NCBI GenBank assembly: GCA_017520105.1
Contig: JAFWRL010000013.1
Location: 1 to 5,495, forward strand
Direction of reading: 5' to 3'
DNA length: 5,495 bases
From: Fibrobacter sp.
GTDB taxonomy: Bacteria > Fibrobacterota > Fibrobacteria > Fibrobacterales > Fibrobacteraceae
This document shows, one piece after another, positions 415 to 5,112 of the stretch. Within the stretch, counting starts at the first letter, position 1, and each line of letters starts with the position of its first letter. The translations under genes were made by a program, and so were the position numbers. The notes below the pieces were generated by a model. It saw only the letters and a list, made by a program, of their open reading frames with translations, did not search any database and was not told the origin of the DNA.

Positions 415-1299
415 TCACGATAGTTTCATATCGCTCAGGCGCGTTTTGTCGACTTGTTCAAACTCATCGATTATTTCTTTGCTCGGAGCTTTGGTGCAGA
501 GGCTCACGACGACAATCGTCAAGAACGAAAGCACAAAGCCCGGCACGAGTTCGTAAATCTGGAAGATTTCAGCGGAGAATCCGGAGAGGTAGAATTTCCA
601 GACAAACGTCGTAAGGCCGCCCACGAGCATACCGCTGATAGCGCCTGCGAGAGTCGTGCGTTTCCAGAAAAGAGCGAGTAACATAATCGGGCCAAAGGTC
701 GCACCGAAACCGCCCCAGGCAAAGCTCACGAGACTCATGACCACGTCGAGGAAGCTCTTACCGTGTTTCACGCCGTCGGCACTGGGAGCGCCCTGCATGG
801 CAACAAGAACGGCGACAAGCGTAATCAAGACGACCACGCCGCGGCTCACCCACATTACTTCCTTGTTGCTCGCGTTCTTGCGGAACAAGTGCTTGTAAAG
901 GTCGTTACTGAAAGCGGATGCAGACACGAGGAGCTGGGAGTCGGAGGTACTCATGATTGCAGCGAGAATGGCGGCCATGAGGATGGCGGCAATCGCCGGA
1001 TGACAAAGCGCCTGGCAGAGAATCATGAAAATACGTTCCGGGTCATCAACGGTGATGCCATGAGCCGTCACGTAATAGCGACCGAGGAGAGCAATCATCA
1101 CGACTGCGGCAAGGCAGATAATCACCCAGGTCATAGCGATGCGACGAGAATCCTTGATTTCTTCGGCGTTCTTGATGGACATGAAGCGCACGAGAATATG
1201 TGGCATGCCAAAGTAGCCAAGTCCCCATGAGAGGCTAGAAATCAGTGCGATAAGCCCAATGGACTTGCCCGTCGTCGCATTCGTGAAAAGGCTCATCAA
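415..1299 (-). CDS. putP: PutP C-terminal part (downstream of the internal TAG)
   Basis: This frame is in phase with the N-terminal part and continues three codons (Asn-Pro-Tyr) after the TAG. The first possible starts are TTG 1299-1297 and ATG 1296-1294, and neither has a Shine-Dalgarno, so independent translation is unlikely. It carries the remaining transmembrane helices. It also carries the MSTSDSQLL motif, whose Ser-Thr (about residues 337-338 of the joined protein) corresponds to Ser340-Thr341, Na+ ligands in E. coli PutP. The end (LCTKAPSKEIIDEFEQVDKTR) resembles the cytoplasmic tail of PutP. It ends in TGA (417-415), upstream of the terminator at 315-346. Confidence 0.5.
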   Translation of the reverse strand: MMSLFTNATTGKSIGLIALISSLSWGLGYFGMPHILVRFMSIKNAEEIKDSRRIAMTWVIICLAAVVMIALLGRYYVTAHGITVDDPERIFMILCQALCHPAIAAILMAAILAAIMSTSDSQLLVSASAFSNDLYKHLFRKNASNKEVMWVSRGVVVLITLVAVLVAMQGAPSADGVKHGKSFLDVVMSLVSFAWGGFGATFGPIMLLALFWKRTTLAGAISGMLVGGLTTFVWKFYLSGFSAEIFQIYELVPGFVLSFLTIVVVSLCTKAPSKEIIDEFEQVDKTRLSDMKLS

Positions 1300-1308
1300 G
1301 TACGGATT

Positions 1309-1959
1309 CTAGGCGTTCACGGCGTCAATCGTCGAGGCAAAACCGCCCGAGCCGTTCATGATCATCAGCGGAATCACAAGCACCGCAATCAGCATCATTG
1401 AAGCTTGAATAAAGTCTGTCCAGCACACGGCAAAGAACCCGCCCATGAACGTGTAACTCACCACCACGACCGCACCAAGGATAAGCCCAGTCGTATAGCT
1501 CATGCCAAAGATAGTTCCGAACAACTTAGCGCAGGCGACAAAGCCGGAGACCGTGTAGAACAGGAAAAACGCAAGAATGAAAATCGAGGCAATGACGCGG
1601 ATGATTCCCTTCTTGTCGCGGAAACGGTTCGAGAAAAAGTCCGGGAGCGTAATCGAATCGCCGCAGAAATGGCTGTACTTGCGCAACCTGCGACCGACGA
1701 TTTTCCAGTTAAAGTAAGTGCCGATAACAAGGCCGATTCCAATCCAAGCTTCGGAAAAACCGCTCACGAAAACGGCACCCGGAAGGCCCATCAAAAGCCA
1801 GCCACTCATGTCGGAGGCCTGGGCAGACATGGCGACCACCCACTTGTTCATGCCGCGGTTGCCGAGGTAATAGGCGTTCAGGCTATTCGCCTTGCGGGAG
1901 AAATACGCCCCAATGCCAAGCATCATTAACAGATAAAGGATAAAGACAACTAACGTCAT
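1309..1959 (-). CDS. putP: PutP N-terminal part (216 codons, ends at the internal TAG)
   Basis: This is the part translated without readthrough. It holds about six hydrophobic segments (roughly residues 1-20, 38-63, 71-84, 119-142, 157-178 and 184-203). The second is the broken helix with the Na+-site motif SAQASDMSGW: Asp50, Ser52 and Gly53 correspond to Asp55, Ser57 and Gly58 of E. coli PutP. CWTDFIQAS (around Asp182) matches the E. coli SWTD segment. The chain stops in the loop before the next transmembrane helix. It lacks the Ser-Thr pair that completes the sodium site, so it should not transport on its own. Confidence 0.6.
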   Translation of the reverse strand: MTLVVFILYLLMMLGIGAYFSRKANSLNAYYLGNRGMNKWVVAMSAQASDMSGWLLMGLPGAVFVSGFSEAWIGIGLVIGTYFNWKIVGRRLRKYSHFCGDSITLPDFFSNRFRDKKGIIRVIASIFILAFFLFYTVSGFVACAKLFGTIFGMSYTTGLILGAVVVVSYTFMGGFFAVCWTDFIQASMMLIAVLVIPLMIMNGSGGFASTIDAVNA

Positions 1960-3880: not shown

Positions 3881-4025
3881 TCTAAAATTCCTTAATGACT
3901 ATCAATTGAAATTTAAATTATTCCCTAAAAATTTCACGTAAAAGTTTCATAAACACCGCTAATAAGCGTCAAAATTCCATGAATCCGCTCATTTCAGCAA
4001 ACTTCAAGCGGTTTTCCGCAAACGC

Positions 4026-4064
4026 GTACCTATAAAACAGCAAAAAACAAGGATTTATAGGTAC
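4026..4064. repeat. Inverted-repeat unit 1 of 3 (TACCTATAAA family)
   Basis: The arms GTACCTATAAA (4026-4036) and TTTATAGGTAC (4054-4064) are a perfect 11-bp inverted repeat around a 17-bp A-rich spacer. AAGCGGTTTTCC stands 8 bp upstream (4006-4017), and a close copy (AAGCGGATTTTCC, 4079-4091) precedes unit 2. The whole block may therefore have arisen by duplication. Confidence 0.85.
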
Positions 4065-4109
4065 CCATACCTCGTTTAAAGCGGATTTTCCAACGTCAAC
4101 AGCACGGGG

Positions 4110-4149
4110 GAACCTATAAAAACCACCTAAAACAGACTTTTATAGGTAC
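4110..4149. repeat. Inverted-repeat unit 2 of 3 (TACCTATAAA family)
   Basis: ACCTATAAAA (4112-4121) and TTTTATAGGT (4138-4147) pair perfectly over 10 bp around a 16-bp spacer. The outer bases differ from unit 1: GAACC on the left, GGTAC on the right. The spacer does not match that of unit 1 or unit 3, so the arms are what is conserved. This argues for selection on the arms or for a defined repeat family. Confidence 0.85.
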
Positions 4150-4205
4150 TCAACAAAACAAAATCAAGAAAATTTCTATTAGTTTATACAAACATTTCGT
4201 AAAAC

Positions 4206-4244
4206 GTACCTATAAAAACCATTTTTAACAAAATTTATAGGTAT
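4206..4244. repeat. Inverted-repeat unit 3 of 3 (TACCTATAAA family)
   Basis: TACCTATAAA (4207-4216) and TTTATAGGTA (4234-4243) pair perfectly over 10 bp around a 17-bp spacer, and the flanking G4206/T4244 could add a G-U pair. The unit centre is near 4225, about 60 bp upstream of the likely transcription start of the leader RNA. That distance would suit a regulator site acting on that promoter. Confidence 0.85.
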
Positions 4245-4271
4245 CCACACCATCTTTTTTGATAAAAAACG

Positions 4272-4279
4272 TATATTAT
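4272..4279 (+). promoter_or_regulatory. Putative -10 region of the leader/GNAT promoter
   Basis: TATATTAT (4272-4279) is a good -10-like sequence. It places the start of transcription near 4286, right where the first helix of the leader begins (CCCGGC, 4287-4292). No good -35 hexamer lies at the right distance (positions around 4249-4256 read ACCATCTT). The promoter may therefore need an activator, for which the repeats upstream are candidate sites. Confidence 0.45.
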
Positions 4280-4285
4280 AGACAA

Positions 4286-4470
4286 TCCCGGCTTCCCCCT
4301 GATACATCCAGAATGAGGTCGCCGGGTGATCCCTTGTTGATGTATAGCCTGGGTGGTCATTTTTTAATGAGGCTGGATGTTATCTAGTAAATATGGGTTC
4401 ATTGTTTAACGCCTTGGAAGACGAATGTTTTCAAGGCGGTCTTCCAAGGTGGCTGTGCCTATTCACACAA
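4286..4470 (+). ncRNA. Structured 5' leader RNA of the GNAT gene, candidate cis-regulatory RNA
   Basis: About 185 nt between the promoter-like box and the GNAT ribosome binding site are dense in complementary segments. CCCGGC (4287-4292) pairs with GCCGGG (4321-4326). GATACATCCAG (4301-4311) pairs with CTGGATGT-T-ATC (4373-4384), 11 bp with one bulged T. ATACATC (4302-4308) can instead pair with GATGTAT (4339-4345), which together with the first helix gives a pseudoknot arrangement. CCTTGGAAGAC (4412-4422) pairs perfectly with GTCTTCCAAGG (4439-4449), while GCCTTG (4411-4416) can pair instead with CAAGGC (4432-4437). Such mutually exclusive helices are typical of riboswitches and attenuators. 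I do not recognise a known class and see no intrinsic terminator inside. It could also be a repeat element or a stand-alone small RNA that happens to precede this gene. Confidence 0.55.
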
Positions 4471-4477
4471 AAATTTT

Positions 4478-4483
4478 GGAGAT
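4478..4483 (+). promoter_or_regulatory. Ribosome binding site of the GNAT gene
   Basis: GGAGAT lies 5 nt before the ATG at 4489 and fixes that start. It falls outside the strong leader helices, immediately after the small hairpin TGTG/CACA (4454-4457 with 4464-4467). Structural rearrangement of the leader could still influence ribosome access. Confidence 0.75.
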
Positions 4484-4488
4484 AAACA

Positions 4489-5112
4489 ATGAAAAAATAC
4501 AATATCCGCACGGAACAACCGCGCGACTTTAAAATCGTCGAAAATCTCACCCGAGAAGCTTTCTGGAACGTTTACCGTCCCGGCTGCGTGGAGCATTTTG
4601 TCCTCCACCATTACAGGAACGACCCAAGCTTTATCCCGGAACTCTCGCTCGTCATGGAAGTTGACGGACAAATTATCGGACACGTGATGTACGCGTGGTC
4701 GAAAATCGACGCCGACGACGGACGCAAAATCCGCATGATGACCTTCGGGCCCATCAGCATCCATCCGGACTACAAGCGACAAGGATACGGCAAGGCACTC
4801 CTCGGCTACTCCATGGAACTCGCACGCAAAATGGGCGCAGGTTGCCTGCTCATCGTCGGGAACATCGGATTCTACGGCAAGAGCGGATTCGTCCCCGCTT
4901 ACACCAAGGGCATCCGCTACGCCGACGACCCGAACAGCGACGCGCCATACTTCTTGTGCAAGGAACTCGACGAGGGATTCCTGGACAGAGTGACAGGCTC
5001 GTACAAAGACCCCGAGGGCTATTTCGTAACCGAGCGAAAGCCCGAAGAATTCGAGAAGTACGAAGCAAGCTTCCCGCCTAAGGAAAAGCTAGTGCTCCCC
5101 GGACAACTGTAA
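4489..5112 (+). CDS. GNAT-family N-acetyltransferase
   Basis: The 207-residue product is a GCN5-related acetyltransferase that would transfer an acetyl group from acetyl-CoA to an amine; the substrate cannot be read from the sequence. The GNAT core is clear. MKKYNIRTEQPRDFKIVENL is the first strand and helix. ELSLVMEVDGQIIGHVMYAW (51-70) gives strands 2-3. MTFGPISIHPDYKRQGYGKALL (84-105) is motif A with the acetyl-CoA pyrophosphate loop (KRQGYG, 96-101; Lys where Gln/Arg is usual). GNIGFYGKSGFVPA (124-137) is the YhbS-like strand 5/helix 4 region. The C-terminal tail (about 150-207) is longer than a minimal GNAT domain. It is cytoplasmic and transcribed alone, between the long structured leader and a strong terminator at 5213-5247. 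Regulation through that leader is the notable aspect of the context. Confidence 0.9.
   Translation: MKKYNIRTEQPRDFKIVENLTREAFWNVYRPGCVEHFVLHHYRNDPSFIPELSLVMEVDGQIIGHVMYAWSKIDADDGRKIRMMTFGPISIHPDYKRQGYGKALLGYSMELARKMGAGCLLIVGNIGFYGKSGFVPAYTKGIRYADDPNSDAPYFLCKELDEGFLDRVTGSYKDPEGYFVTERKPEEFEKYEASFPPKEKLVLPGQL

Follow-up and report, generated by a model that had tools for sequence, protein, structure and literature searches.

The window analyzed here, a stretch of 5,495 nucleotides of Fibrobacter DNA, carries a gene for a GNAT acetyltransferase (positions 4489..5112, plus strand; 207 amino acids) behind a leader rich in complementary segments, and the question raised by this locus is what that leader does. 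A sequence-only reading proposed that positions 4286..4470 form a single leader RNA with mutually exclusive helices, a candidate for an unrecognized riboswitch or attenuator. Comparison with relatives instead divides the region into two unrelated RNAs. The segment 4286-4363 is absent from the other group 1 leaders shown, and the sequence from ~4366 onward is conserved. In the leaders L003 and L004, which lack 4286-4363, a promoter-like stretch lies directly before TTTTTAATGAGGC or TTTTATCAGAGGC, and the sequence thereafter is near-identical. We propose that the conserved part, positions 4366-4493, is probably a leader-peptide translational control element of the GNAT gene that acts through a short open reading frame (ORF), with or without regulated stalling of the ribosome.

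The nearest solved fold for the GNAT protein is Escherichia coli YhbS, and the protein is 95-97% identical to six copies in MAGs of Fibrobacter or F. succinogenes, one of which is partial and one of which lacks its first residues. No substrate can be named from the fold, since many other acetyltransferases come below the nearest match, YhbS. A likeness to nourseothricin acetyltransferase is weak (E 0.0013, residues 82-126) and was set aside as a substrate clue. Elsewhere in the window, a sodium:solute symporter gene (415-1959, minus strand) is interrupted by one in-frame stop, with both halves in the same Pfam family, and three inverted-repeat-like units (ACCTATAAA...TTTATAGGT) lie upstream of the leader at ~4024-4247.

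A protein search matched the GNAT in 74 of 167 Fibrobacterota genomes, and a DNA search of these genomes recovered leaders at 98% down to 71% identity, with more found through the protein only. We retained 38 distinct intact Fibrobacter leaders, counting that of the window, with copies identical over ~160 nt around the GNAT start merged (for example, L012 with L020). Excluded from the counts were nine deletion-type leaders (L013, L033, L034, L058, L063, L065, L068, L086 and L095), six copies whose upstream 420 nt contain no TGGATG (L064, L085, L092, L094 and, at contig ends, L014 and L081), loci L001-L008, hits beginning past residue 20, and the leaders of genomes G116 and G001, which lie at contig ends. 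L146 was added by hand and is left out of the GNAT tree, its protein being truncated by a contig end. Alignment A1 contains 35 of the 38 leaders, without L028, which repeats another row, and L082 and L089, which carry long inserts. A3 additionally omits L090, and in both A1 and A3 the 3' end is out of register for L071, L078 and L079. Homologues in Fibrobacterota, to which the sequence-only reading had looked, exist for 4366-4493 (38 leaders with that of the window); among GNAT leaders, only three have 4286-4363, again counting the window.

Outside the clade, inspection by eye of 17 stretches upstream of GNAT homologues (35-41% identity) revealed no such leader. At E 1e-50 or better, only G168 has a GNAT relative among 296 genomes of its phylum (taken as Bacteroidota); G169 also has one. 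The viral contigs searched contain no GNAT relative and no short ORF of the group 1 and 2 type, and the plasmids searched gave no DNA match to the leader. Plasmid GNAT genes of Selenomonas (L158, 1360-1490) and Pusillibacter (L161, 655-792) share a different leader, in which a short ORF with a TTG start (MRNNTLEIAG or MKKNNTLESVG) is followed by a hairpin after its stop. This Firmicutes motif matched no phages and occurs, among plasmids, in the two source records alone; in viral contigs a long pattern gave no match and a short pattern eight, none with the surrounding leader. On a Roseburia plasmid (L165, 701-2005), a single fused gene combines a GNAT domain with RsgA, a GTPase of ribosome assembly (Pfam RsgA_GTPase, 3.5e-35).

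All of the pairs listed in the sequence-only reading are present, none more than one base from where it placed them. These include CCCGGC/GCCGGG (4287-4292/4321-4326), ATACATC/GATGTAT (4302-4308/4339-4345), GCCTTG/CAAGGC (4411-4416/4432-4437), the pair GATACATCCAG/CTGGATGTTATC (4301-4311/4373-4384), which contains a one-base bulge, and an 11-bp helix, CCTTGGAAGAC/GTCTTCCAAGG (4412-4422/4439-4449). Within 4286-4470, perfect helices of at least 7 bp number four where 0.63 are expected, a count attained in 1 of 200 dinucleotide shuffles, and one perfect helix has 11 bp (0 of 200 shuffles). The excess is weak for helices of at least 6 bp (5 against 2.9; 34 of 200 shuffles), and by fold energy 4284-4490 stands out only mildly (z -1.94, with 9 of 200 shuffles equally low). 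The helix bridging 4301-4311 and 4373-4384 is within chance, its best duplex energy being matched by 231 of 1000 shuffles. We also rejected it as a second switch, given this chance-level energy and a 5' strand that is unchanged in copies away from GNAT. That first list contains neither the short ORF nor the pairing with most support, 4398-4408/4483-4493, which has one arm beyond the region considered. The sequence-only reading saw no match to the riboswitch cores it named; our Rfam search found nothing within 4286-4490 up to E 5. For the leaders of eight relatives, a search at E up to 1 gave none inside the leaders and three sub-threshold matches elsewhere in those loci.

The upstream RNA is a lineage-specific 5' extension (4268..4363, plus strand) with a -10-like TATTAT at ~4273-4278, two helices and a terminator-like end (GATCCC...GGGTGGTCATTTTTT). 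The -10-like box is the basis for the putative transcription start that the sequence-only reading placed at the first helix. Together, the helices 4287-4292/4321-4326 and 4302-4308/4339-4345 could form a pseudoknot, as the sequence-only reading suggested, in what is a separate element, found ahead of the leader in the window lineage only. Strong matches to the extension occur in 4 of 167 genomes, and a fifth is weak (E 0.006). It precedes the same GNAT in G002 (100% identity) and G005 (98%), and lies away from the GNAT leader in G132 (89%) and G137 (88%); its exact core is also found in three IMG/VR contigs. In G132 and these three contigs, the extension is flanked, on the opposite strand to its own, by the end of a Mu F-like gene and by the start of a small head gene, and in G137 only a remnant of the Mu-like neighborhood surrounds it. 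Outside GNAT, a TTGACT/TATATT promoter-like pair stands before the extension and 8 or 9 T follow it; the names of Mu-like genes and promoters are our reading of the sequence. Rfam gave no match in the extension at relaxed thresholds. A structured element of ~80-95 nt, possibly a phage small RNA, is common to three Fibrobacter GNAT leaders, that of the window among them, and to a Mu-like head-gene region, whose genes run opposite to it; it has a promoter-like start and a T-run end of its own (window 4268-4363; L152, 1501-1595; L153; L155-L157). The 5' extension is a separate, mobile addition to the conserved leader, and may have come from a phage, as a small RNA or a terminator unit that was captured ahead of it.

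The conserved leader of the YhbS-like GNAT gene (4366-4493, plus strand) opens with a Shine-Dalgarno-like GAGG and spacer (4366..4376; seen across the 35 leaders of A1, with GGAG in groups 2 and 3), followed by a short upstream ORF of 10 codons (4377..4409), which encodes MLSSKYGFIV-stop in the window. The corresponding peptides are MLSSKYWFIV in group 1 and MLFSKSWFIV or MLSSKSWFIV in group 2. Group 3 contains MLNIQNWFIV, MINILNWFIV and similar forms in part, the rest having an 18-codon form that usually ends in QNWDIV. In L032 the ORF is cut by a premature stop and in L084 it continues beyond the helix P1 described below; both end points were placed by hand from relatives. The Trp codon, largely outside P1, is retained in 32 of 38 short ORFs and is the one codon so kept. 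It is replaced by Gly in the window (GGG), L009 and L074, by Arg in L084, by Leu in L090 and by a stop in L032.

Translation of this ORF is argued for by its Shine-Dalgarno-like motif, frame-keeping changes in length, an excess of synonymous differences and natural in-frame fusions. The distance from its start to P1 differs by 3 nt (L071 and L084) or 24 nt (the 18-codon group) only, so that the P1 arm is always entered in the same reading frame; the argument rests on this distance, as any ORF is by definition a multiple of three. Among 14 distinct 33-nt forms, synonymous and nonsynonymous differences number 182/315 in the frame of the ORF and 30/384 and 80/330 in the other two, and among 8 distinct 57-nt forms 71/55 in frame against 0/114 and 27/91, these being counts over pairs of related sequences and not independent events. 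In L033 the short-ORF start is fused in frame to a full-length GNAT, which is also present in the protein database (P0007); in L086 and L095 the same junction occurs on damaged or partial copies. These fusions suggest that the initiation site of the short ORF works. By comparison of relatives, then, the short ORF appears to be translated from a ribosome-binding site that belongs to it.

All of the 44 pattern matches listed that represent this short ORF, in 42 of 167 genomes, precede GNAT or a contig end reaching its start. No other gene under the same short ORF was recognized in the 167 Fibrobacterota genomes with the one exact pattern used; the remaining matches were judged from sequence to be due to chance, and L103 alone was examined further. 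In the nine deletion-type leaders, all or part of the P1-P3 region or the GNAT start is removed, in some cases on otherwise full-length GNAT genes. Three of them (L034, L058 and L063) have lost P1 to P3 and are not in frame with GNAT. We speculate that the deletion alleles are constitutive.

The pairing with the best support joins the short ORF to the GNAT start. The 5' arm of P1 (UUCAUUGUUUA, 4398..4408, plus strand) is formed by the final codons of the short ORF together with its stop, and its 3' arm (UAAACAAUGAA, 4483..4493, plus strand) covers the GNAT start-codon region; the GNAT start lies 40-142 nt beyond the 5' arm. An 11-nt perfect complement such as P1 was reached by 2 of 5000 shuffles. 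Across the leaders, 97.6% of cells are paired and three pairs show two-sided change. The nine central pairs are all present in 27 of 38 leaders, and eight in L084. In seven leaders, those of group 2, eight central pairs are combined with a C-A mismatch, and in L071, L078 and L079 the predicted fold retains the helix with one bulged base. Two-sided changes give CAUUGUGUA or CAUUGUAUA against UAUACAAUG in L076, L083 and L090; here the U-A pair at codon GUU has become G-U in L076 and L090 and A-U in L083. In the GNAT tree, L090 falls inside the 18-codon group, apart from L076 and L083. Beside the nine central pairs, TTC..AUGAA has become GAC..AUGUC in the 18-codon group, with two pairs changed on both sides. 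Since P1 dictates much of the conserved peptide end, selection on the peptide and on the RNA are inseparable at F-I-V-stop.

Three further structures accompany P1, all on the plus strand. The hairpin H0 (CUGGAU/AUCUAG, 4373..4387) covers the start codon of the short ORF; in the alignment of groups 1 and 2 (A2), 100% of its cells are paired, with G-U replacements and no pair changed on both sides, and group 3 has UGGAU/AUCCA. The hairpin P2 (4410..4438; pairs 4410-4416/4432-4438 and 4418-4422/4427-4431, or segments 1:2) stands right after the stop codon, with 88.0% of cells paired and two pairs changed on both sides in A2. Group 3 has an equivalent 1:2-type hairpin, with 88.9% of cells paired and seven pairs changed on both sides. 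P2 is missing in L089 and L090, and in most other leaders directly follows P1. Inside the leaders of L082 and L089 there is a repeat-like insert (GTGTCATCCTGAGC...), downstream of P2 in the former and in its place in the latter, with P1 intact in both. P3, present in most leaders, pairs an anti-Shine-Dalgarno arm (segment 3, 4443..4449), recovered by RNAalifold, with a Shine-Dalgarno arm (4474..4481) that includes the GGAG of GNAT at 4478-4481. In P3, 83.5% of cells are paired and all five counted pairs show two-sided change in some row; the range across alignments is 75-89%, partly because the position of the Shine-Dalgarno shifts.

The 11-bp helix 1:3 (4412-4422/4439-4449, spanning 4412..4449, plus strand) would exclude both P2 and P3. 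The competition between helices put forward in the sequence-only reading is possible to the extent that 1:2 and 1:3 can both form in each of the 18 leaders aligned for groups 1 and 2. Helix 1:3, with 100% pairing in these leaders, has a probability of 0.02 in the window fold and shows no two-sided change that would speak for it.

Unprompted, RNAalifold on the MAFFT alignment (35 rows) returned P1, P3 and part of P2; the energy of this consensus is small (-2.63 kcal/mol). For P1 and P3 in A1, 93.2% of cells are paired against 41-49% when the arms are slid, with 60 two-sided cells against 23.5 in shuffles; these cells count sequences and not events, and several changes are common to a clade. The corresponding figures are 93.1% against 35-51% for groups 1 and 2 (A2), and 91.7% against 40-45% for group 3, where 14 two-sided pairs compare with 8.3 in shuffles (0 of 500). 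Counted as pairs, two-sided changes show no excess in A1 (8 against 6.8 shuffled, 85 of 500; further pair types 14 against 14.5, 400 of 500) or in A2 (2 against 1.8, 416 of 500; further pair types 9 against 9.8, 490 of 500). These controls do not favor the structure; the case for P1 and for the reading frame draws on other counts.

Folding models indicate what this pairing may do. The GNAT start codon is closed in 38 of 38 free folds (openness at most 0.09), and, with the two-sided changes in P1 and P3, this points to conserved pairing, in part with the short ORF itself, that keeps the start region shut. When a ribosome is modelled with its A site on the Trp codon position, median start-codon openness rises from 0.00 to 0.75 (at least 0.4 in 32 of 38 leaders), and with the stop in the A site it is 0.50 (29 of 38). 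A ribosome at codon 2 leaves it at 0.00, with none of the 38 at 0.4 or above. The GNAT Shine-Dalgarno is still paired with a modelled ribosome near the end of the ORF (medians 0.09; at least 0.4 in 3 and 4 of 38). Of the 38 free folds, 6 have it open to at least 0.4, so P3 does not lock it in every leader.

We suggest that the GNAT start would remain closed as long as the end of the short ORF is free of ribosomes, and that a ribosome in the final third of the ORF, whether translating or stalled, would open P1 and allow GNAT synthesis, either by fresh initiation or by re-initiation after the short-ORF stop. More tentatively, the trigger might be a slow or arrested ribosome, as caused by a translation inhibitor, a nascent-peptide ligand or a lack of charged tRNA-Trp at the Trp codon, and GNAT might modify the compound that arrests the ribosome. 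The modelling appears to support half of this mechanism. The opening of P1 is predicted and full release is not, so that re-initiation, a standby 30S subunit or replacement of P3 by helix 1:3 would be needed. As the modelled ribosome frees the start codon and not the Shine-Dalgarno, stalling is something we infer.

The simplest alternative is a sub-case of this proposal, plain translational coupling, in which the short ORF is translated constantly, each ribosome opens P1 and re-initiation takes place at GNAT, giving a ratio and not a switch. We regard this as possible, if short of probable. Re-initiation fits the ribosome-blocked folds, in which the start codon is freed and the Shine-Dalgarno is not, and pairing alone can explain the conserved peptide end, the Trp being dispensed with in the six leaders named above. 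However, a helix set kept for so long seems much for simple coupling, and the retention of a Trp codon largely outside P1 in most leaders is a further point against it. Transcription attenuation through the 5' extension, whose terminator-like hairpin and T run, placed ahead of the short ORF, would act in the window lineage, is quite unlikely. The copies outside the GNAT leader do carry GATCCC...GGGTGGTC followed by the T run, and the window has a weak terminator-like site at 4317-4331, but an A separates the stem from the six-T run there, and GNAT leaders other than those of the window, G002 and G005 do without the extension. A simple scan of the plus strand found no terminator-like site between the short ORF and the gene (4409-4489).

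A small-molecule riboswitch or RNA thermometer, with the short ORF incidental, is very unlikely. It would account for a conserved structure that ends on the start codon and for the pair of helices that could compete in groups 1 and 2, but not for the frame-specific synonymous excess, the frame-keeping length changes or the fusion of the short-ORF start in frame to GNAT; moreover, apart from the codons we see no conserved unpaired core, and the leaders lack Rfam matches. Of the two functions originally envisaged for this RNA, attenuation is supported for 4366-4493, in a translational form built on the short ORF, and the riboswitch is not, as no conserved ligand-binding core beyond the short ORF and helices and no Rfam match were seen.

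Within the preferred reading, leader-peptide translational control of GNAT, the element could be a drug- or stress-inducible detoxification switch, in which GNAT acetylates a compound that the short ORF detects by its slowing of the ribosome or of tRNA-Trp charging. Related Firmicutes enzymes have a different short-ORF leader (the Selenomonas and Pusillibacter plasmids), and in this reading leader-less alleles would be constitutive. We consider this elaboration unlikely. If translational control is correct, rumen Fibrobacter gains a testable short-ORF switch backed by comparison, and the natural trigger of the GNAT may be something that acts on translation, as perhaps then would the substrate of the enzyme. 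The two-sided changes that run through short-ORF codons offer a clean case of pairing and reading frame preserved together.

A Fibrobacter leader peptide, or this GNAT leader, was not found described among the literature matches listed; comparison is with systems from other organisms. The trpL and tnaC leaders encode amino-acid leader peptides with a conserved Trp codon in a short ORF. The Fibrobacter ORF likewise has a conserved Trp codon, but it is a single one and is lost in the window, GNAT is not a known Trp gene, and there is no terminator-like site between short ORF and gene. In Salmonella, translation of the 8-codon ORF mgtQ, which controls mgtB, is reported to release a ribosome-binding sequence held in a stem-loop (PMC8092293). 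The likeness is in a very short ORF and a downstream ribosome-binding sequence held in structure. In contrast to the GNAT leader, mgtQ is intra-operonic and is described as needing the ribosome-destabilizing codons Asp2 and Glu5 (PMC8092293). Asp or Glu occurs at codon 2 or 5 in none of the 38 Fibrobacter short ORFs.

The cat leader is a translational attenuator of the same type as those of the erm genes. In the ermC and ermB attenuators, a short ORF lies upstream, and the opening of an RNA structure that contains the ribosome-binding site is attributed to a ribosome stalled on that ORF (PMC5118997, PMC8274638). Unlike erm and cat, the Fibrobacter leader would control a YhbS-like GNAT, and the last codons and stop of its short ORF pair directly with a start codon 40-142 nt further on; stalling at this leader is presumed, and the Shine-Dalgarno is not freed in the model. 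What it has in common with erm and cat is a short ORF before the gene and a structured ribosome-binding site, and, as for erm, leader deletion alleles also occur at the Fibrobacter GNAT. Among the literature matches listed, the GNAT leader would represent a known style of control at a new gene and in a new phylum.
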